From Chelativorans sp. (GTDB lineage: Bacteria; Pseudomonadota; Alphaproteobacteria; Rhizobiales; Rhizobiaceae): DNA of 64,000 bases. The stretch is taken from positions 124,001 to 188,000 of the forward strand of contig NZ_JAPSLH010000001.1 of NCBI RefSeq assembly GCF_031180965.1, written 5' to 3'. The translations under genes and the position numbers were made by a program. Positions 9,562-64,000 of the stretch are shown here, in pieces. Below the pieces are notes generated by a model. It did not search any database. It was not told where the DNA came from and saw only the letters and a list, made by a program, of their open reading frames with translations. Positions within the stretch are counted from its first letter, which is position 1; the number at the start of each line of letters is the position of its first letter.

Positions 9562-10356
9562 CTACTGGCCCATCTTGTAGTCGAGGAACCATTTCTTGTT
9601 CAGCGCATCGAGCGTGCCGTCTGCCATGAGGGCGGCAATCCCGGCATTGATGGGCGCCACGAGATCCGAGCCCTTCCTGAAGATAAAACCGAAATCCTCC
9701 GTGCCGAGGGGTTCGCCGATCAGCTTCAAGGCGCCGTCCGAAGCGTCGGCGTAGCCTTTGCCTGCTGTGCCGTCGGTCAGCACCAGGTCCACGTCGCCCG
9801 CTCGCAGCGCCTGGACAGCCGCGCCAAACGTCTCGAAAGCCTTGATGCGCGGGTTAGCCTCGTCCCCATCGAGCACCTCATACACGGCCACATAGAACGG
9901 CGTGGTGCCCGGCTGCGCTCCGATGAGCCCCTCCTCGAACGCGGCAAAGCTCTTCGCGTCGGTGAAGCGGTCCTCATCGCCGCGCACCAGCATATACATC
10001 TCGGATCGCATATAGGGATCAGAGAAGTCCACTTTCTCCTTGCGGTCGTCGCGGATGGTGATGCCGGTCATGCCGATGTCGTACTGGCCGTCAGAGACCG
10101 CCTGTATCATGGCGTCCCAGCTGATGTTGTGGTACTCGACGTGGAAGTTGAGCCGCCTGGCGATCTCATTCATCGCATCTTATTCCCAGCCGATCTGCTT
10201 GCCCGTCCCAGGATCGACGAACTGCAGCGGCGGATAGGCGTTTTCCGTCACCACGGTTACCTTGCGGCCCCCAAGATCAGGCAAATCCTGCCCCCCCGCA
10301 GCCGTTGCAGCGAGGATGGCAAACGTGGCGGCAAGCAACGCTTTTCGAAACGACAT
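9562..10356 (-). pseudogene. Amino-acid ABC transporter substrate-binding protein, interrupted by an in-frame TAA
   Basis: Periplasmic binding protein family 3 (SBP_bac_3). Reading from ATG at 10354-10356 gives a signal peptide (RKALLAATFAILAATAAG), TVVTENAYPPLQFVDP, and IGWE, then TAA at 10180-10182, then DAMNEIARRLNFHVEY with the rest of a normal domain (GMTGITIRDDRKEKVDFS, GFIFRKGSDL). Family members read GWEYDAM here, so a Tyr codon (TAT/TAC) appears changed to TAA. Without it the gene has 264 codons. The in-frame ATG at 10173 would make a protein lacking its signal peptide. This is a recent pseudogene, a suppressed stop, or a sequencing error. Confidence 0.85.
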
Positions 10357-10472
10357 CTAGCGCTCCCTTCACTTCGCTCTGCGACCGGCGGACCGCAGCA
10401 CGAGGGATGACCCGGCAAAGGTGGATAGCCTTCCCAGCGCGAAAATCGCTTGAGCTGCGGGCAGCCGTCAAC

Positions 10473-10500
10473 AAAAAAGGGAGCGCTGTCGAGCGCTCCC
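10473..10500 (-). terminator. Rho-independent terminator of the rplS operon
   Basis: On the minus strand GGGAGCGCT, a CGAC loop, and AGCGCTCCC form a perfect 9-bp stem followed by TTTTTT. It lies 32 bp beyond the rplS stop. Confidence 0.9.
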
Positions 10501-10531
10501 GGACTTGTAGGATGTTCGCGGCTGCGACGGC

Positions 10532-11047
10532 CTATTCGCCCTTCGGCTCCGCGGCCTCCTTCTCGGCGGCTTCGGCGGCTGCCTTCTCGGCGGCGAGCGC
10601 CTGGGCCGCGGCTACCTTTTCGGCCTCGATGCGCGCCTTTTCCTCGGCGGCGGCCTCGCGCTCGGCATCATTCAGCTTGCGGGCGCGGGCGCCCGTATTC
10701 TCGCCGATGCGGGCGGATTTGCCGCGGCGGTCACGCAGGTAATAAAGCTTGGCGCGGCGCACCTTGCCGCGGCGCACCACTTCGACCGCCTCGACCAGCG
10801 GCGAATAGACCGGGAACACGCGTTCCACGCCCTCTCCGTAGGAAATCTTGCGGACGGTGAAATTCTCGTGCAGGCCGGCACCCGAGCGGGCGATGCAAAC
10901 GCCCTCGAAGGCCTGCACGCGGGTGCGGTTGCCTTCGGTCACGCGGACCTGGACGCGCAACGTGTCGCCGGGTGAAAATTCTGGAAGGGTCCGCTTGGCT
11001 GCAATCTTCTGGGCCTGCTCGGCCTCGAGCTGACGGATAAGGTCCAT
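10532..11047 (-). CDS. rplS: 50S ribosomal protein L19 with Ala/Glu-rich tail
   Basis: L19 sits at the interface of the 30S and 50S subunits. The 171-residue product has the L19 core ([61 protein letters not shown]) in about the first 125 residues, then a roughly 45-residue charged tail of Ala, Glu and Lys, longer than the 115-120 residues of E. coli L19 but common in Rhizobiales. It is separated from trmD by 318 bp and ends at a strong terminator. Confidence 0.97.
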
Positions 11048-11365
11048 CTTTCTGTCCTCTTGTTCTTCTCGAAGCGTCAGAGCGCTCGTCTCACCGGCAG
11101 TTCCTTACCGCCTGAAGAGCGCGCTCAAGGAGCGCAGGAGCGAATGCACGTTCTTTGCTTGAAAGGCAGGCCATGGACCCTCCATGGCAGCCATGCGCGC
11201 ACATACACCACATCGGAGAGCAAATCAACGCCGGGGACGGAAGTGCCGATGCTGCTTTCTCCGTGCGCGGCGCCCGGCACGCTCAGCAGGATCAGCGGTG
11301 GACCAAGGCGGGTACCATTAGCGCTGCCAGAAGCAGAGTCGCGTTTTCGACCCCGAGCAGCAGGT
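11048..11365 (-). other. Spacer between trmD and rplS with a short palindrome
   Basis: No ORF with coding character is seen. On the minus strand this should hold the rplS leader and probably its own promoter. A perfect inverted repeat, GCCATGGA-ccc-TCCATGGC, lies at 11170-11188. The trmD stop is at 11366-11368. Confidence 0.4.
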
Positions 11366-12073
11366 TCACTTCTTCCCCCTCGCTTCTTCGTACGCGCGCC
11401 AGAGGTCCGGCCGCCGCTCCTTCGTAAGCTTCTCCGCCTCCGCAAGTCGCCACTCGACGATCTTTTTGTGGTTGCCGGAAACGAGCACCTCCGGGATCTC
11501 GCGCCCCTCGAACACTTGCGGCCGGGTGTACTGCGGATGCTCCAGGAGTCCGCTTTCAAAACTCTCCTCGGCGCCGGAGCTTTCGTTCCCCATCACACCT
11601 GGCAAGAGCCGCACCACCGCATCGAGCAGGACGATCGCCGCCGGCTCGCCGCCCGAAAGGATGTAGTCGCCGACCGAGACCTCCTGCAGTGCCCGCGCCT
11701 CGATGACGCGCTGATCCACGCCTTCGAATCGACCGCAGACGATCACCGCGCCGGGTCCAGCGGCGAGTTCGCGGACCAGCCTCTGGGTGAGCGGCTTTCC
11801 GCGCGGGCTCATGAGCAGCCGGGGGCGCGGGTCGTCCTCGGGCGAAGCATGGTCGATGGCGCGCGCAAGCACGTCGGCGCGCATTACCATTCCCGCCCCG
11901 CCGCCCGCCGGCGTGTCGTCGACGCTGCGGTGCTTGTCGGCAGCGAAGTCGCGGATCTGCACCGTCTCCAGCGACCAGGTGCCGGCGACCCGCGCGCGCC
12001 CCGCGAGAGACACGTCGAGCGGGCCCGGAAACATTTCGGGATAGAGCGTCAGCACCGTTGCGCGGAAACTCAA
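11366..12073 (-). CDS. trmD: tRNA (guanine37-N1)-methyltransferase
   Basis: TrmD makes m1G37 in tRNAs and prevents +1 frameshifting. 235 residues; SPOUT signatures [19 protein letters not shown] at the start, the knot motif [24 protein letters not shown] and [18 protein letters not shown]. Its ATG overlaps the rimM stop by 4 bp, so the two are translationally coupled. Confidence 0.97.
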
Positions 12074-12696
12074 CGGTTGCCTCCGGCCGATTTCGGCCCG
12101 CGCGGGCGCGCGCCGCGGTCGAAGCCGTGCCGGCTCCTGCTTTGCTCCTCCGCTTCCGCCTCCTGATTATCGAGCCCGGCGGCGAGGCTGTCGATGCGCA
12201 AAATACCCTCGGCGAGATCGATTTCCGGCACGGCATCACGCGTGAAGGGAATCATCCGCGTAATACCGGAGCTGGGGCGGATCTCGAGGATGTCGCCGGC
12301 GCCGAAATTGTGCACCGCCACGACCCGCCCAAGGCTTTCGCCGGTCTCGTCGAAAGCGGCGAGCCCGACGAGATCGGCGTGATAGAATTCCTCTTCCTCC
12401 AGCTCCCGAGGCAGGGCCGAGCGGTCGACGAACAGGGCCACGCCATTGAGCGCCTCGGCCGCGCTGCGGTCGTTCACGCCTTCAAAACGGATGATGACCA
12501 GGTCTTTGGCGGGGCGGATATGCGCGACTGTGAGCGCGCGTCCGTCGGCGGTATGCAGCGGACCGTAGCCGCCAAGCGCCAGCGGATCGTCGGTAAACGC
12601 CTTTACCCGAACCTCGCCCTTGAGGCCGTGCGCGGCGCCGATCACGCCCAGCTGCACGGGGTTCTCCAGCCGCGTCGGATTGTTTGATCTAGCCAT
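12070..12696 (-). CDS. rimM: Ribosome maturation factor RimM
   Basis: RimM binds S19 and helps 30S assembly. The 208-residue product has the RimM N-domain ([21 protein letters not shown]) and the PRC-barrel domain ([45 protein letters not shown]). The C-terminal ~35 residues are polar and disordered. It overlaps trmD by 4 bp. Unusually rpsP is not next to it; zapA is immediately upstream (39 bp). Confidence 0.95.
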
Positions 12697-12735
12697 GCGC
12701 TGCCGTCCTGGCCCGTCGATCGGGCACGGCTTTTC

Positions 12736-13095
12736 TTACGAGTGGGCGAGCTTTGCGGCAACCATCTCGATGCGCTCGGCCAGCTGTCCCAGCGCCCCGA
12801 TGAGCGCCGCGTCGTTCTTGTCCGCCTTCAGCAGGGCGTCGTCACGGGTCTTGCGCAGCGTGGCGATCTCACTCTCCATCCCGCGCACGCGCTTCTGCAG
12901 CTCCGCCAACTCGTCCATCACCATGATGCCGGCCATCACGGTCAGCCGCTGGTCGCCGATCTCGCCGAACGAATCCTTCAGATGCGCCACATAGCGGTCG
13001 AAGCGCTCGGCGAGGGCGATGAGATGCTCCTCCTGGCCCTCGTCGCATGCCATGCGGTAGGCCTTGCCGTCGATCGTGACCGTTACCTGCGCCAT
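12736..13095 (-). CDS. zapA: Cell division protein ZapA
   Basis: ZapA cross-links FtsZ filaments at the Z-ring. 119 residues with the family pattern VTVTIDGKAYRMACDEGQEEHL at the N-terminus (in two parts: VTVTIDGKAYRM and GQEEHLIALAERFD), QRLTVMAGIMVMDELAELQ, and a C-terminal coiled coil. It lies 19 bp downstream of a DUF4164 gene, the usual rhizobial pair, and leads into rimM-trmD-rplS. Confidence 0.92.
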   Translation of the reverse strand: MAQVTVTIDGKAYRMACDEGQEEHLIALAERFDRYVAHLKDSFGEIGDQRLTVMAGIMVMDELAELQKRVRGMESEIATLRKTRDDALLKADKNDAALIGALGQLAERIEMVAAKLAHS

Positions 13096-13114
13096 ATCCG
13101 AATCCCAACAGCCT

Positions 13115-13387
13115 CTAACGGTCCAATACGGCGCGGATCGTCTCCATTGCCGTCACCAGTCTGCGCGACACCTCGCGATTGACCTCGGCCAACCGCTCGG
13201 CGCGGGCCTCCGATTTGTCGATCTCCTGCGCCAGGCGCGCGCGGTCGGCGGCCATGCGCTGCACCTCGGCCTCCGCTTCGAAGAAGTCACGCTCCTTCTC
13301 CAGCCGGGTTTCCGCCGCAAGCTCGAGGCTCTCGACGGCTTTTCCCAGGCGCACAAGCACTTCCCTCAGGGTGGTCTCCCCGCTCAT
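13115..13387 (-). CDS. DUF4164 family coiled-coil protein
   Basis: 90-residue, highly charged and almost entirely helical protein (LREVLVRLGKAVESLELAAE, then ARLAQEIDKSEARAERLAEV). In rhizobia a DUF4164 protein precedes zapA, so a division-related role is plausible but unproven. First gene of the minus-strand unit; it diverges from tkt across 271 bp. Confidence 0.75.
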   Translation of the reverse strand: MSGETTLREVLVRLGKAVESLELAAETRLEKERDFFEAEAEVQRMAADRARLAQEIDKSEARAERLAEVNREVSRRLVTAMETIRAVLDR

Positions 13388-13567
13388 TTGCCAGCTTCCC
13401 CGCCCGCCCCGGCTCGAATAGCACGCAATCAGAAGATTTTACCGGCGAAAGATTACGCGGCGGGTGAAACCGGCGTCAACACGGGCCGCATCTATTCCCC
13501 TGATTGCTGCGCTTGCCTCCATACAATTCATCCGATCAGCCGAACCTTCGGGCTTCGCGGCTGTTTA

Positions 13568-13595
13568 TTGACTTGGGCAGAGCAACTGATATGTC
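13568..13595 (+). promoter_or_regulatory. Candidate promoter of tkt
   Basis: TTGACT at 13568-13573 and TATGTC at 13590-13595 with a 16-bp spacer, in the divergent gap between the DUF4164 gene and tkt and about 65 bp before the tkt ATG. Assigned by eye. Confidence 0.4.
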
Positions 13596-13658
13596 TCCCC
13601 TGCCTTTCGGGCTCGAGCCCGCAAAAAGCCTCAAACGGCAGCCGACCAGCGAGCGCAC

Positions 13659-15647
13659 ATGATCTCACGCGAAAAACACGATCGGATGGCGAACGCGATT
13701 CGCTTTCTCTCGATGGATGCCGTCGAGAAGGCGAAGTCCGGCCATCCCGGCCTGCCTATGGGCGCCGCGGACATCGCGACGGTCCTCTTCACACGCTTCA
13801 TGACGCATGACCCGAAGAACCCGCATTGGCCGGACCGCGACCGCTTCGTGCTTTCGGCCGGGCACGGCTCCATGCTGCTCTACTCGCTCCTCTACCTGCT
13901 CGGCTACGAGGATATCACCATCGAGGAGATCAAGAATTTCCGCCAGCTCGGCTCGCGCACGGCTGGCCATCCCGAATACGGTTTTGCCGCCGGCATCGAG
14001 ACGACCACCGGCCCCCTCGGCCAGGGCTTTGCCAATGCGGTCGGCATGGCGCTCGCCGAGCGCCTGCTCAATGCCCGCTTCGGCGACGACCTCGTCGACC
14101 ACTACACCTATGCCTTTGTCGGCGACGGCTGCCTGATGGAAGGCATCAGCCAGGAGGCGCTCACCCTGGCGGGGCATCTGAGGCTTTCCAAACTGATCGT
14201 CCTGTTCGACGACAACCAGATCTCCATCGACGGCCCGGTGTCGCTGGCCGACTCCACGGATCAGTGCGCCCGCTTCGCCGCCTCCGGCTGGAACACGCTA
14301 CGCGCCGACGGCCATGATCCGGACGCCATTGCCTCGGCCATCGAGACCGCGCGCCAGTCCGACCGGCCGACGCTCATCGCCTTCCGCACCACCATCGGCC
14401 GCGGCGCCCCGACAAAGGCCGGCACCAACAAGGTGCATGGCTCGCCTCTCGGCGCCGATGAGATCGCCAAGACGCGCGAGGCGCTGGGCTGGGATGCCCC
14501 GCCCTTCGTCATACCCTCTGACATCCTCGATGACTGGCGGCTTGCCGGCCTGCGCTCGGCCAAGGAGCGCGTCGCGTGGGAGAAGCGGCTTGCTGCCGCC
14601 GATACCGAGACGCGGGCTCAGTTCGAGCGCCGCATGCGCGGCGACCTGCCGGAAGCGTTTCCGAGCGTCCTCGTCGAATACAAGCGCAAGCTGGCGCGCG
14701 AAAATCCCCCGGTGGCCACGCGAAACGCGTCCGAGATGGCGCTCGAGGTGATCAATGACTGCCTCTCTGAAACAGTGGGCGGCTCGGCGGACCTGACCGG
14801 CTCGAACAACACCAAGACCAGCCAGACCAAGCCGGTGACGCCGACGGATTTCTCAGGCCGCTACATCCACTACGGCATCCGCGAGCACGCTATGGCGGCA
14901 GCCATCAACGGCATCGCGCTGCATGGCGGGCTGATCCCCTATGGGGGCACCTTCCTCACTTTTTCGGATTATGCGCGGCCGGCCATGCGGCTCGCCTCGC
15001 TGATGCATATCCGCTCCATCTTCGTGATGACGCATGACTCGATCGGCCTCGGCGAGGACGGTCCGACGCATCAGCCGGTCGAGCATCTGGCCGCGCTGCG
15101 CGCTATCCCGAACCATCTGGTTCTGCGTCCTGCCGATGCGACGGAAACCGCGGAGTGCTGGCAGGTCGCCCTTGAATCGAGGACGACGCCCTCCACCCTT
15201 GCCCTGACGCGGCAGAAGCTGCAGCCCGTGCGCATCGAGTTCGAGGAGGAGAACCTCTGCGCCCGCGGCGCCTACGAGCTCCTGCCCGCCAGCGACGAAG
15301 CGCAGGTTACGATCTTCGCCAGCGGGTCCGAAGTCGAGATCGCCGTACACGCCAGGACGATGCTCGAGGAGCGCGGCCGCCCCACGCGCGTCGTATCGGT
15401 GCCCTGTTTCGAGCTTTTCGAGCGCCAGCCGCAGGACTATCAGGAGGCGATCCTCGGCCGTGCCCCTGTCCGCATCGCCATCGAGGCCGGCGTGCGCCAG
15501 GGCTGGGACCGCTTCATCGGTACCGACGGCATCTTCATCGGCATGCATGGCTTTGGCGCGAGCGGTCAGGCGCCCGCCCTTTACAAGCATTTCGGCATCA
15601 CGGCGGAAGCGGCGGTGGAAGCGGCCGAGGCGCGGCTCCGCGCATAG
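13659..15647 (+). CDS. tkt: Transketolase
   Basis: Thiamine-diphosphate enzyme moving two-carbon units between sugar phosphates in the pentose phosphate pathway. 662 residues, normal length. Visible motifs: [19 protein letters not shown], the ThDP/Mg motif [19 protein letters not shown] with DNQISIDG, and the pyrimidine-binding domain ([43 protein letters not shown] read in blocks). It opens the tkt-gap-(antiporter)-pgk-fba carbon block typical of Rhizobiales. Confidence 0.97.
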
Positions 15648-58458: not shown

Positions 58459-61400
58459 CTACTTCCTGAGCTGGTCGCGGAGCGCGGCGAGCTTGGCGAA
58501 GGGCGAATTGGGATCGATCTTGGCCGGCCTTTCCTCGCGCCGTTGCGGCCGCTCGTCGCGACGCTGCAGCCGGTTCTGCTGGCCTTCACGGCCCTCCCGG
58601 CTCTTCACGCCGCCGTTCCGCTCCCGCCCCGCTTCGGCCTGGCGGGAATGACGGGGCTTGCCCGTCGCCTGCCGCGGGCCCTCTTGCCCCTGCTGCCGCC
58701 CGTGCTTCTCCTGCCTCTGACCAGGCCGCCGCTCAAACCGCGCCTGCCGCCATATGAGCACAGGCTTTGGCACTTCGTCGGAAGCGGGTGCTGCTTCGGG
58801 AACAGTGGTTTCGGACAGCGCAGGAGAGGCTTCGCCCGCAAAATGGCTCGGCGTTTCGGCGTCGGCCGGCGTGGATGCCGTGTCCGCTACGGGAGTGGGC
58901 TCATTCACATCCGCTGGCTGCGCCGGCCCGAGGCCGGTGGCAAGCCCGCCGGTTGCAGGTTGGGTCGGCGCCGAGGTCTGATCCCGCGCCTCCCCGATGG
59001 CTTCGTGCTCGGGTGCGGAGGGCTGATCCGCTGCTGGCGATGCCTCAGAAGAAGGATCGGCCGGCCCGGCCGGATCGCCAGGCTCTTCAGAGCCGCCATC
59101 GCCGGCCGAAGCTCCAGCCTCGGCCGGATCTTCGGGCGCCGCCTCCGCCTGCGCGGGCCGATCGAGATCTGCCAGCCGGGCGCTAACCTCCTCGGCAGGT
59201 TTCGGCTCGGCGCGATAGCCCAGCCCCTTGAGGATGGCCTCCATGTCGTCCGCCGTGGCGCCGAGAATCGACATCATGGCAGGCGTGACGACAAAAGCCT
59301 CGCCGCCCAACGCGCCTTCCGGCCGCTTCCCGGTGCCCGCCTTCCAGGCGATCGCCGGGCGGATCAGGTCCGCCAGCCGCTCCAATATGTCGATGCGCAC
59401 CGCTCGCCGGCCCAGATTGCGGAAGCCTGCAAGGCGATAGAAAGCCCGCTCGAAACTCGGGTCCGTGACTACGGATGTGCGCCCCGCCGCGAGGGCGGCG
59501 ACCACGTCGCCGTAGCCGGGCTTGTCCTTGGCGTCGTTCTTGAGCGCCCATAGAAGCGTGGCCAGGCCCGCGGGCGCCGGCTTGATGAGCGTGGGGATGA
59601 AGATGTGATAGGCGCCGAACCGCACGCCCAGCCTGCGCAAGGCCGCGCGCGCCTCCTGGTCGAGCGCACGCACCTCCTCCGCCACGTCGCGGCGATTAAG
59701 AAGACCGAAATTCTCGACGAGCTGGAAAGCGAGCCCGCGCGCAATCCCGGAGAGCATCTCCGCCTGGCGCAGATCGAGCAGCGGCTTCAGCAGGCTCTCC
59801 ACCTGGAAATTGACGAAGCGTTCCGCCCTCGCGGCGACCTTGTCGCGCGCCGGCCCGGTCAGCTGCTCGTCGGCAAGCAGGACAATGCGCGGCTTCAGGG
59901 CGTCCTCGCCCGCGGTCAGCGTCGCAACGGGAGCGCCGATCCAGCGCAGCAGGCCGTCCGAGCCGAGTGCCAGATCGCCATTGGGCGCTGCGGAGAAACG
60001 CTCGGCGCGCAGGTCGAACTCGGCAGCCAGCGCCTTCTGCGCCGCCGCTTTGACGGCCCGCGCATCCTCGCCTTCCGCAGTCCTGTCGGCGGTGAAGCGG
60101 AATCCCTGCATCTCCCCCACATGATGGCCCTCGACCAGGACCTCTCCGCTAGGGCTGACCTCTGCTTCCGGCATCGCATTCTCTCTAAGGCGCTTCATCA
60201 GCACGGAAGTCCTGCGATCAACGAAGCGTTTCGTCAATCTCTCATGCAGCGCATCGGATAGCCTGTCTTCGATCTCGCGTGTTTTTTCCTGCCAGTGTGT
60301 CGGATCGGACAGCCATCCGGGTCGATGCGAGACGAACGTCCAGGTGCGGATCTGGGCGATGCGCGCCGAAAGCGTGTCGATCTCGCCCTCTGTCGGAGAA
60401 GCCCGCTCCACCTGCTCGGCCATGTAGTCTTCGTCCACATGACCGTCGCGCGCCAGGTCCATGAAAATGGAGCTGACCAGCTCGGCATGCTGGGCGGGCG
60501 CGATCTTGCGATAGTCGGGGAGCGCGCAGGCATCCCACAGGAGCGCGACTTTCGTGCGGGTGGTCGCCAGGGCGCGCACGTCGTCGTCCCGCGAAAGATG
60601 TTCCAGCACGCGCATATCCGCGGCCGGCAAGGCTCGCGTGAGACCCTCCACCGGAGGCGCTGCTTCCAGCGATGCTTTCAGGGCGTCGATGCTCGAAATG
60701 TCGATCTCGGCCGAGCGCCACTGCAGCACCTTCACCGGCTCGAATTGATGCGTCTCTATCCGCTCCACGAGCGCATCGGGGAAAGGATCGACCTGGCCCG
60801 TCACGCCGAAAGTGCCGTCCCGCACGTGCCGGCCCGCACGACCTGCGATTTGGCCAAGCTCGGCCGCCGTCAGCTCGCGATACTGAAAGCCGTCGAATTT
60901 GTGGTTCTGGGCGAAGGCCACATGATCGACGTCGAGGTTGAGCCCCATGCCGATCGCATCGGTGGCCACCAGATAGTCCACGTCGCCCGATTGATAGAGC
61001 GCAACCTGGGCATTGCGCGTGCGGGGGCTCAGCGCCCCGAGCACGATGGCCGCGCCGCCGCGCTGGCGGCGGATCAGCTCGCCGATGGCATAGACCTCGT
61101 CCGCCGAGAAGGCGACGATCGCCGAGCGGCGCGGCAGCCGCGTGATCTTCTTTGACCCAGCATAGGTGAGCACCGACATGCGCGGTCGGGTCACCACCGA
61201 AATGCCCTTGAGTAGCCTTTCCAGTATGCCCCGCATCGTGGCTGCGCCCAGGAGCAGGGTTTCCTCCCGGCCGCGCAGATGCAAGAGCCGGTCGGTGAAG
61301 ATGTGCCCGCGCTCCAGGTCCCCCGCCAGTTGCACCTCGTCGATCGCGACAAAGGCGGCGTCCGTCTCGCGCGGCATGGCCTCCACCGTGCAGACCGAGT

Positions 61401-61653
61401 AACGCGCGCCGGGCGGGATGATCTTCTCCTCGCCCGTGATCAGCGCCACGTCACGCTCGCCAACACGCGCGGCAACGCGGTGATAGACCTCACGCGCCAG
61501 CAGCCGCAGCGGCAGGCCAATAATGCCCGACGAATGCGCGACCATGCGCTCGATCGCCAGATGGGTCTTCCCCGTATTCGTCGGCCCCAGGACCGCCGTA
61601 ACCCCTCGCCCGTCGAGCCTGGCGAGATCGCTTTTCGTCGGCTGAATATTCAT
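58459..61653 (-). CDS. Suv3-like DEAD/DEAH-box RNA helicase with long disordered tail
   Basis: 1064 residues from ATG 61653. Helicase core in the first ~400: AVLGPTNTGKTHLAIERM (Walker A), AFVAIDEVQLAGD (motif II), LLGAATMRG, TDAIGMGLNLDVDH and QIAGRAGRHVRDGTFG (motif VI). Similar to mitochondrial SUV3, which degrades RNA with PNPase. Residues ~840-1064 are Pro/Ala/Glu-rich and then Gln/Arg/Glu-rich, low complexity and probably disordered. A GANTC-rich region precedes it. The ORF also opens at 61683. Confidence 0.9.
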   Translation of the reverse strand: MNIQPTKSDLARLDGRGVTAVLGPTNTGKTHLAIERMVAHSSGIIGLPLRLLAREVYHRVAARVGERDVALITGEEKIIPPGARYSVCTVEAMPRETDAAFVAIDEVQLAGDLERGHIFTDRLLHLRGREETLLLGAATMRGILERLLKGISVVTRPRMSVLTYAGSKKITRLPRRSAIVAFSADEVYAIGELIRRQRGGAAIVLGALSPRTRNAQVALYQSGDVDYLVATDAIGMGLNLDVDHVAFAQNHKFDGFQYRELTAAELGQIAGRAGRHVRDGTFGVTGQVDPFPDALVERIETHQFEPVKVLQWRSAEIDISSIDALKASLEAAPPVEGLTRALPAADMRVLEHLSRDDDVRALATTRTKVALLWDACALPDYRKIAPAQHAELVSSIFMDLARDGHVDEDYMAEQVERASPTEGEIDTLSARIAQIRTWTFVSHRPGWLSDPTHWQEKTREIEDRLSDALHERLTKRFVDRRTSVLMKRLRENAMPEAEVSPSGEVLVEGHHVGEMQGFRFTADRTAEGEDARAVKAAAQKALAAEFDLRAERFSAAPNGDLALGSDGLLRWIGAPVATLTAGEDALKPRIVLLADEQLTGPARDKVAARAERFVNFQVESLLKPLLDLRQAEMLSGIARGLAFQLVENFGLLNRRDVAEEVRALDQEARAALRRLGVRFGAYHIFIPTLIKPAPAGLATLLWALKNDAKDKPGYGDVVAALAAGRTSVVTDPSFERAFYRLAGFRNLGRRAVRIDILERLADLIRPAIAWKAGTGKRPEGALGGEAFVVTPAMMSILGATADDMEAILKGLGYRAEPKPAEEVSARLADLDRPAQAEAAPEDPAEAGASAGDGGSEEPGDPAGPADPSSEASPAADQPSAPEHEAIGEARDQTSAPTQPATGGLATGLGPAQPADVNEPTPVADTASTPADAETPSHFAGEASPALSETTVPEAAPASDEVPKPVLIWRQARFERRPGQRQEKHGRQQGQEGPRQATGKPRHSRQAEAGRERNGGVKSREGREGQQNRLQRRDERPQRREERPAKIDPNSPFAKLAALRDQLRK

Positions 61654-61772
61654 ACACGGAATCTCGCATGCAGAACTTGCCAAGAGCGCAAGTCCACCGC
61701 TCTTGCCGCCTCCATATAGGAAGGCCGAGAAGGAGCAAAAGGCAAAATAGCCACCCTGTTAATCCTTGGAAC

Positions 61773-61877
61773 GACTCTGGAACGAATCGGCGACGAATCA
61801 CTGACTCGCATTGATTCACTCTTTGTTCGGCACCAGAGTTGGTCCCGCCGCCGAGGAATCCAACCAGATGCTGAATC
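61773..61877. promoter_or_regulatory. Cluster of seven GANTC (CcrM) methylation sites
   Basis: GANTC occurs at 61773, 61784, 61795, 61803, 61813, 61856 and 61873; the first five start 11, 11, 8 and 10 bp apart. The first part is an imperfect 11-bp tandem repeat (GGAACGACTCT, GGAACGAATCG, GCGACGAATCA). Upstream of the Suv3-like helicase on the minus strand, 120-220 bp before its start. Confidence 0.8.
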
Positions 61878-62051
61878 GGGTTTCGCTCTAGTGAGAAGAT
61901 CGCGTGGCGCCGCATTAAGATTTGACGGGCGCGGGTCGCTCCGGTTCTGGATCGGAAGAGGCAACCCTAAGGATTTGTTCATGTTTCTTAACGGAAGCTT
62001 CCACCGAAAGCGCGTCGCCCGGTCGGAGGCGTTAACCTTCCGGCCAAAGCC

Positions 62052-62073
62052 GGAACGAATGGGCGACGAATCA
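62052..62073. repeat. Second copy of the GANTC-containing 22-bp unit
   Basis: GGAACGAATGG-GCGACGAATCA matches 61779-61800 (GGAACGAATCG-GCGACGAATCA) at 21 of 22 positions, in direct orientation, 273 bp apart. It retains one GANTC (62068). Confidence 0.85.
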
Positions 62074-62228
62074 TTGTTTCGCGGAGGTTCTTGAAAGGTT
62101 CTGCACAACATGCTGTGGCCTCCACCGCCTATCAACCGATCGTGCACAGCTTTTCCACAGGCGTCGAAACATGAAAGGGCCTCGGCGTTAACAATGCCGT
62201 CCCATTTTGACGCGGTCGGCCGCTTCTC

Positions 62229-62951
62229 TCAGGCGATGTATTGGCCGCCATTGGCCGTCAGCGTCGAGCCGGTGATGAACCCGGCCTCATCGGCTGCAAG
62301 GAACACCACGCAGCGGGCGATCTCCTGAACTTCACCCAGCCTGCCGACCGGGATTTGTGCGATGATCTTTTCGCGCACGGTGTCAGGCACCGCCATGACC
62401 ATGTCGGTGGCAACGTAACCGGGGCAGATCACGTTGGCTGTGATATTGGCCCGCGCGCCCTCCTGCGCCAGCGCCTTGACGAAACCGATCTCCCCTGCCT
62501 TGGACGCCGAGTAATTCGCCTGGCCGGCCTGTCCCTTTTGGGCGTTGATGGAGGAGATCACGATTACGCGGCCGAATTTGCGGTCGCGCATGCCGGGCCA
62601 CAGGGGATGCGTCATGTTGAAGACGCCGGAGAGGTTGGTGTCGATGACCTCGCGCCACTGCGCCGGCGTCATCTTGTGGAACATCGCGTCGCGCGCGATC
62701 CCCGCATTGTTCACCAGCACGTCCACCGGGCCGAGCGCGGCTTCCACCGCCCTTATGCCGGCTACGCAGGCATCGTAGTCGGCCACCGACCAGCGGAAGG
62801 TCGGAATCCCGGTCTCCTCGTTGAAGCGTTTGGCCGCCTCTTCATTGCCGGCATAGTTTGCCGCGACGTTATAGCCGGCCTGCTTCAGCGCGATCGAGAT
62901 GGCGGCGCCGATGCCGCGCGTGCCGCCCGTCACAAGTGCCGTTCTTGGCAT
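62229..62951 (-). CDS. phaB: Acetoacetyl-CoA reductase
   Basis: NADPH-dependent step of polyhydroxybutyrate synthesis. 240 residues. SDR motifs TGGTRGIGAAI at residues 8-18, NNAG, catalytic SSINAQKGQAGQANYSASKAG (Ser, then Tyr and Lys; split here) and ATDMVMAVPDTVREKI typical of PhaB. It lies 227 bp downstream of phaA on the same strand. Confidence 0.95.
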   Translation of the reverse strand: MPRTALVTGGTRGIGAAISIALKQAGYNVAANYAGNEEAAKRFNEETGIPTFRWSVADYDACVAGIRAVEAALGPVDVLVNNAGIARDAMFHKMTPAQWREVIDTNLSGVFNMTHPLWPGMRDRKFGRVIVISSINAQKGQAGQANYSASKAGEIGFVKALAQEGARANITANVICPGYVATDMVMAVPDTVREKIIAQIPVGRLGEVQEIARCVVFLAADEAGFITGSTLTANGGQYIA

Positions 62952-63178
62952 GCAGGTCTCCCATTGAAGCCGTCATGAGCAGCCGAGCATGACCAGCCGT
63001 TATGAAAAGCAGGTGACGCGGAGGCAGCCCTGTTTCGCGCTCTGTTGGCCTATTCACCGCCTGTGCAACCCCCATAGGTCGCCGGATGGTCTAACGCCAC
63101 CCCTTGGCCGCTCCCGCAGCTTTTGCAATTCTCCGGCTCGCACACCTCCTCGATGGCTGCCGTTCCCGGTCGGCGCGG

Positions 63179-64000
63179 TCAGCGCTCGACGCACATGGCG
63201 ACACCCATACCGCCACCGATGCAGAGGGTCGCAAGGCCCTTTTTGGCGCCGCGCCGGCGCATCTCGAAGAGCAGCGTGTTGAGTATCCGCGCGCCCGACG
63301 CGCCGATAGGGTGGCCGATCGCGATCGCGCCGCCATTGACATTCACGATTTCCGGATTCCACCCCATATCCTTGTTCACGGCGCAGGCCTGTGCGGCAAA
63401 TGCCTCATTCGCCTCGACCAGGTCGAGATCGTCGGCCCGCCAGCCTGCCTTTTCCAGCGCCTTGCGCGAGGCGGGGATCGGGCCCGTGCCCATCACCGCA
63501 GGATCGACGCCGGCCGTAGCCCAGGAGGCGATGCGCGCCAGAGGCTCGATGCCTCGGCGTGAAGCCTCCTCCTCGCTCATCAGAACCATGACGGCAGCGC
63601 CATCATTGATCCCGGAGGCGCTGCCCGCGGTCACCGTTCCTTCCTTGTCGAAGGCGGGGCGGAGCTTCTGCATGGCCTCGAGCGTGGCGCCGTGACGGAT
63701 ATACTCGTCGCTGTCGACGACCAGATCGCCCTTGCGCGTCTTCACCGTGACCGGGGCGATTTCGTCCCTGAAGCGGCCGGCCTTCTGGGCGGCTTCCGCC
63801 TTGTTCTGCGAGGCGAGCGCGAAGCGGTCCTGCTCCTCGCGGGTGATCTGGAACGCACGCGCCACGTTCTCCGCCGTCATGCCCATATGGTAGCCGTTGA
63901 AGGCATCCCACAGCCCGTCACGGATCATGGTGTCAACCATGGCGTAGTCGCCCATTTTCACCCCGCCGCGCAGATGCGCGCAGTGGGGGGAAAGGGACAT
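63179..64000 (-). CDS. phaA: Acetyl-CoA C-acetyltransferase (beta-ketothiolase), 5' end outside the window
   Basis: The visible 273 residues are the C-terminal two thirds of a thiolase: [48 protein letters not shown], then the catalytic [16 protein letters not shown] (His) and [16 protein letters not shown] (Cys). The frame runs off the end at 64000, so the N-terminal part with the acyl-accepting Cys is beyond the window. Condenses two acetyl-CoA for PhaB. Confidence 0.95.

Follow-up and report, generated by a model that had tools for sequence, protein, structure and literature searches.

In most discussions, CcrM methylation acts by way of GcrA and of a small number of GANTC sites, one or a few also being usual in GcrA/CcrM promoters. 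In enterobacteria, SeqA binds clusters of GATC, which are the sites of an orphan adenine methylase and are helically phased there, and we know of no SeqA relative in the class to which our locus belongs. The origin of Caulobacter carries CtrA and DnaA sites. Excerpts of two reports describe upstream GANTC of GcrA/CcrM promoters as conserved between species, and hemi- or full methylation as a possible replication clock (PMC3667746, PMC3973325); in an excerpt of the second, the chromosomal origin of Caulobacter is also said to hold several GANTC sites (PMC3973325). The locus reported here resembles the methylation-dependent promoters of Caulobacter and relatives in having GANTC upstream of a gene and conserved between species. 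However, up to seven GANTC are packed into 105 bp here, some of them within a 90-bp module that occurs in several copies and has further invariant letters. With SeqA clusters it shares the clustering and helical phasing of sites of an orphan adenine methylase, but the methylase is a different one and the module is not at oriC.

The seven GANTC sites start at 61773, 61784, 61795, 61803, 61813, 61856 and 61873 of the window, which is the whole 64-kb stretch of DNA analysed, and span 61773–61877 without strand. Re-counting of positions agreed with the original prediction on the seven sites and on the spacing of the first five, successive gaps being 11, 11, 8, 10, 43 and 17 bp. The imperfect 11-bp tandem repeat that it had pointed out was also recovered (GAACGACTCTG, GAACGAATCGG and CGACGAATCAC). 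However, its chance rate of one site per 250–300 bp misfits the window, which holds 93 GANTC or one per ~690 bp. Dinucleotide shuffles of the window contained 314.84 GANTC on average, so the pentamer is depleted here (~3.4-fold), and excerpts of earlier reports mention GANTC depletion in Ensifer (PMC8725594) and as a general trait of Alphaproteobacteria (PMC3973325). When 93 sites were placed at random in 20,000 trials, at most five fell within 101 bp (29 trials), and six or seven never did; the densest GANTC group in the rest of the window has three. Random placement and conservation in relatives together rule out a chance origin, and the cluster is kept in the close relatives where the original prediction proposed to look for it. 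Helical phasing was predicted as well, and for the first five sites alone the mean resultant length was 0.88 at a period of 9.95 bp and 0.77 at one of 10.5 bp. For all seven sites the best period was 10.05 bp (0.78, matched by 1.5% of 4,000 random sets), but the value at 10.5 bp was only 0.56, and phasing of the seven window sites is therefore moderate.

The cluster belongs to a ~90-bp DNA module that is present twice in the window, with the copies 273 bp apart, and its first five sites lie inside the helicase-proximal copy A (61751–61842, + strand). The distal copy B (62024–62113, + strand) contains one GANTC (62068). A direct repeat of 52 bp, 73% identical, runs through both copies (61758–61809 and 62031–62082), and DNA searches with the intergenic region returned copies A and B as its conserved parts. 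The module was defined by aligning 52 copies (alignment A1), and a sequence-only model, R1, was built from it; R1 matches copy A at 61754–61837 (73 bits, E 8.3e-22) and copy B at 62028–62112 (63.5 bits, E 7.6e-19). The layout is TTAA, GAAC-N7-GAACRAA-N7-CGAATC, TTC-N7-GTTC and a palindrome, the GAAC repeat reading GGAAC-N6-GGAACRAA when its leading G is included. Conserved TTAA columns mark the left edge, which reads GTTAAT in copy A (61758–61763, + strand) and GTTAAC in copy B (at 62031). The hexamer CGAATC (61794–61799, + strand) holds the third GANTC site and is the sole six-letter block invariant in 52/52 rows of an alignment spanning orders (A4), a conservation that is partly built in because R1 and the retrieval pattern, with which such rows were found, contain this core. 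TTC-N7-GTTC (61815–61828, + strand), the inverted counterpart of the GAAC repeat, is kept in 130/140 proximal and 117/138 distal copies. A coding sequence was rejected since the 11-bp period is no multiple of three and the alignments, on inspection, contain indels.

Copy A lies upstream of the gene of a Suv3-like DEXQ-box helicase (58459–61653, − strand; Pfam DEXQc_Suv3 E 1.7e-26, Helicase_C E 1.4e-8), here called mgpS. Between module and gene, CTATATG (61713–61719, − strand), part of a CATATAGGAAG block conserved in most rows of the genus, is a candidate −10 element of the helicase promoter, a role proposed from its likeness to a consensus. The intergenic stretch of about 575 bp is bounded on the other side by the end of phbB (acetoacetyl-CoA reductase, 62229–62951, − strand; NCBIfam TIGR01829 E 3.3e-106, above its cut-off). 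One or two DnaA-box-like sequences, e.g. TTATCCACAGG and TACCCACAGG, occur beyond copy B in many members of the genus, the window having TTTTCCACAGG at 62150–62162, and several GTTAAC motifs share this intergenic region of genus members. According to an excerpt of PMC4941405, SMc03877 is mgpS, an RNA helicase, and we infer that the window helicase is its equivalent.

The predicted position upstream of the helicase is confirmed, with an orientation that is fixed across the compared loci. A matrix scan of 170 helicase loci, in which some genomes are repeated, gave 336 module hits and none reversed relative to the helicase. Among distinct copies, 140 are proximal and 138 distal, and the proximal ones lie 39–372 bp from the start codon as placed by alignment. 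Copy number varies from one to four: 122 of 169 loci (some incomplete) have two copies, 29 have one, 10 have three and 8 have four. The gene on the far side differs between clades, being phbB, DUF3108, FAD monooxygenase-like, transglycosylase or NAD synthase. As to S4 and fdxA, which the original prediction had included in its proposed switch, no tie to the module was found beyond their location downstream of the helicase.

At E≤0.1, R1 matched 49/61 genomes, namely our own, in which copies A and B are the sole matches, 15/15 of the same genus with two matches each, 15/21 of the same family and 18/24 of other families of the order. These counts were used instead of a plain DNA search, which gave 52/61 genomes at E≤1 with many weak matches due to chance. 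The best match adjoins the Suv3-like helicase gene in 46/49 genomes, and two others (G045 and G058) have weak matches (E 0.07 and 0.04) on a contig other than that of the helicase. In a sample of the class, R1 at E≤0.001 matched 26/289 genomes, of which 23 belong to other orders, two belong to the same order and one is our own, and 15 of 17 other-order loci examined contain the helicase. The core GAACRAA-N7-CGAATC has 82 matches in 45/61 genomes, 73 of them beside the helicase, compared with 2 matches of a reversed control pattern. It is therefore not a regulon-wide operator, and an ordinary regulon motif was rejected. A pattern scan of named genomes returned at least 118 stretches, and those listed come, judged by title, from alphaproteobacterial or proteobacterial MAGs or from Hyphomicrobiales, with one titled Marinicella sp. 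W31 as the exception.

Plasmid records contained no module match at the sensitivity used, and phage records gave four matches of 24–31 bases (E 0.01), which we read as chance. In IMG/VR, one contig had the core pattern with a 13-bit partial R1 match and none had the longer pattern. A mobile, plasmid or phage element was rejected on these searches. Searches of the open-licence literature gave no description of the element among the matches listed, and the intergenic region is not described in excerpts of PMC11514494, PMC4433202, PMC8725594, PMC3667746, PMC7987155, PMC3973325 and PMC12051234, nor in those of PMC12186491, PMC4941405, PMC9855851, PMC7717549, PMC9110341 and PMC4409342. The module is real and old, and it is not described in the literature searched.

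Parts of the module resemble operators of known repressors. The direct repeat GAAC-N7-GAAC of copy A (61769–61783, + strand) has the letters and spacing of the alphaproteobacterial LexA box; mgpS might thus be an SOS gene under LexA, with GANTC incidental. The repeat is kept in 137/140 proximal copies, and the same spacing occurs upstream of recA in 3/6 genomes. However, it is mostly lost in distal copies (kept in 18/138), several loci of other orders read GATC-N7-GAAC or GAAC-N7-AAAC, and the recA locus of our own genome is without an exact box. A strict LexA box was rejected, the repeat not being kept in all copies and clades. Moreover, the module is far larger than a LexA box, CGAATC and the palindromes are left unexplained, and the core does not show the distribution of a regulon motif. 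We consider a LexA operator improbable.

Two palindromes give copy A a second resemblance. Palindrome 1 (61830–61845, no strand), with the core C-n-A-n-A-T-n-T-n-G, and palindrome 2 (61861–61876, no strand), which lies 31 bp from it and overlaps the GANTC at 61873, each have 5/6 fixed letters in the window. Their letters are only partly like those of the NrdR box. All six letters of palindrome 1 are found in 119/139 proximal and 118/138 distal copies, and at least five in 32/37 distant copies (36 loci, four copies from our own family), about 1.7% being expected by chance. Palindrome 2, with at least five letters exactly 31 bp on, is found in 113/139 proximal copies compared with 21/9,140 background positions. 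The pair, at three helical turns, is similar in geometry to NrdR box pairs, which are described in an excerpt of PMC12051234 as 16-bp palindromes, usually 15–16 bp apart and best bound at whole helical turns. If these palindromes bind the dATP-sensing repressor NrdR, mgpS would belong to a deoxynucleotide regulon and the rest of the module would be an activator site. However, no ribonucleotide reductase gene adjoins the module, palindrome 2 is present in only 14/138 distal copies and, at +30 to +33, in 11/37 distant copies, and the most conserved part of the module falls outside the palindromes. An NrdR operator appears unlikely as an account of the module.

Spacing between copies suggests another explanation, in which each copy would be the promoter of a small non-coding RNA, read away from the helicase and belonging to a gene family. 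Neighbouring copies are 196–300 bp apart in 158/166 pairs, and some copies lie between convergent genes. However, conservation is much lower between the copies than within them. When the module alone was modelled, 0 pairs of a consensus RNA fold were predicted from the 52 aligned rows on both strands, and Rfam gave no match at E≤1 within 61000–63500. A structured RNA was rejected on these results, and a family of RNA genes seems very unlikely. The commonest A–B spacings are 272–273 and 282–283 bp, about one helical turn apart, in counts that ignore kinship.

Whether GANTC itself is selected can be judged from the sites in the copies. In 140 proximal rows, sites 1–5 read GANTC in 81, 127, 140, 110 and 88, and in 138 distal rows in 0, 114, 129, 12 and 6, so that distal copies mostly have two sites; counts for sites 2 and 3 are inflated because 107/170 loci were retrieved by a pattern containing them. 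The proximal counts show that upstream GANTC are conserved among relatives, as in GcrA/CcrM promoters. The cluster of the original prediction is kept in close relatives, but beyond the nearest genera many proximal copies contain fewer than five GANTC, and the number varies between clades. Site 1 is intact in 81 of 140 rows, with one mismatch in 1, two in 5 and three or four in 53 (kinship ignored), and its middle base varies (66 G, 15 C). This nearly all-or-none pattern with a variable middle base fits the expectation for a methylation site. At sites 2 and 3, where intact, the middle base is always A, which fits the expectation for protein recognition. Protein recognition shaping the module is further indicated because GANTC number varies by clade and CGAATC alone is invariant. 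Outside the proximal module, 36 distant loci contain 89 GANTC where 33.5 are expected from the rest of each locus, an excess that includes distal copies and general intergenic enrichment.

We favour, with a probability of roughly 0.45, the view that several proteins occupy the module to control mgpS from upstream, and that CcrM methylation determines this occupancy; that proteins bind, that methylation is sensed and that mgpS is the target are all inferred. According to this model, one to four copies of the ~90-bp module would act in cis upstream of mgpS as the binding site of a multi-protein complex. Through the 11-bp repeats, the half-sites GAAC, CGAATC and TTC-N7-GTTC would come to lie on one face of the helix, which would allow cooperative binding, and the palindrome pair of copy A, three turns apart, would offer a second site with a geometry like that of an NrdR operator. 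Since several half-sites overlap CcrM sites, passage of replication would leave them hemimethylated and alter occupancy, and transcription of mgpS may in this way be tuned to the cell cycle. More generally, the module is probably a place where proteins read the replication or methylation state of the cell.

The link to the helicase is not without exceptions. R1 had no match in 12/61 genomes, 11 of which have the helicase, and thus the helicase can do without the module. Genomes whose R1 match was weak or lacking supplied 14 regions upstream of the helicase for a full-model search, in which the module was absent from 13 and present in one (L231), in which an AT-rich upstream region (427–591, genome G043) holds two degenerate copies about 100 bp apart. 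In two genomes (G020 and G114) the module is present and the helicase was not detected, and in G262 both are on one contig but some 4.7 kb apart, separated by a MerT gene. In G055, a genome of another family, three degenerate copies (L185 8901–9675) lie between convergent ribonuclease T2 and transketolase-like genes. The parS-like sites are about 130 kb away, with the helicase locus on their opposite side, and one more weak copy is elsewhere in the genome. One copy in G020 lies between convergent flavoprotein (DFP) and nitroreductase genes. In L194 of this genome, a module copy is just upstream of a repeat array (~10000–13682), which reads in frame as repetitive ORFs and looks CRISPR-like by inspection, and of a 577-aa protein beside it, which has an RNxxxH-type (HEPN-like) motif but matches no Pfam family; a flavoprotein/DFP (coaBC-like) protein of L194 (550–3024) has an N-terminal FitA-like ribbon-helix-helix domain. 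A pure promoter role is uncertain, because no helicase was detected in G020 and G114 despite their module, and because copies in G055 and G020 lie between convergent genes, where a promoter is not required.

These exceptions bear on the main rival of the mgpS control element. The module may instead be a chromosomal site and not a promoter, i.e. a methylation- or protein-binding element of titration or sequestration type on the origin side, which stays beside mgpS mainly by shared descent. SeqA-bound GATC clusters and datA follow comparable logic. Such a site would be consistent with the retention in G020 and G114, with the copies between convergent genes, with a core that is nearly one locus per genome (73/82 matches) and with the phased GANTC of G055 described below. 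In addition, TTAAC and DnaA-box-like motifs share the intergenic region, giving with GANTC a mix like that of the Caulobacter origin, and in the nine genomes that carry module and parS-like sites on a single contig, the two are 46–598 kb apart. However, this distance varies more than tenfold, and in the compared loci the module strictly adjoins the helicase start in one orientation, though shared descent could give the same. The plasmid searches, with no match, also speak against it. An origin proper was rejected because parS-like sites, at the distances above, and hemE, likewise distant in five genomes, lie elsewhere, unlike the Caulobacter origin. We rate a chromosomal site without promoter function as somewhat unlikely.

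An indication that phased sites matter comes from G055, where nine GANTC beyond the module lie over 180 bp of intergenic DNA (L184 9742–10098). Their gaps of 21, 22, 21, 31, 31, 11, 21 and 21 are near whole multiples of 10.5 bp, and the mean resultant length R at this period is 0.976, which was reached by 0/20,000 random sets (best 0.937). A tenth GANTC, inside the end of the neighbouring kinase gene, is in phase too (R 0.978). The array is the sole 250-bp bin with at least three GANTC in this 19-kb locus. Flanks of the nine sites have a mean identity of 28% (maximum 56%), and the array is therefore not a duplicated unit; the middle base of its sites varies. That sites with unrelated flanks keep a 10.5-bp register argues that helically phased CcrM-type sites can themselves be selected. 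This array was found in one genome and is one of eight loci tested for phase; at the other seven, which also have extra GANTC, phasing did not reach significance after correction (L234 p 0.041 before). In view of the G055 array, the idea of phased methylation in the original prediction deserves to be tested directly.

The boldest form of this idea is a dedicated alphaproteobacterial chromosomal site, in which CcrM sites on one face of the helix would be read by a phase-sensitive, SeqA-like complex that couples passage of replication to control of the helicase or of replication. We hold it to be doubtful. A conserved module in several copies with GANTC at helical spacing, together with the 180-bp stretch in one family (that of G055) where GANTC alone recurs in phase, would make the spacing of methyl groups a signal in its own right, with a reader protein still to be sought. 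The region upstream of mgpS, which is expected in S. meliloti, offers an easily mapped target. For the mgpS control element that we favour, the module would give a first handle on the control of a widespread and little-studied bacterial Suv3-like helicase.
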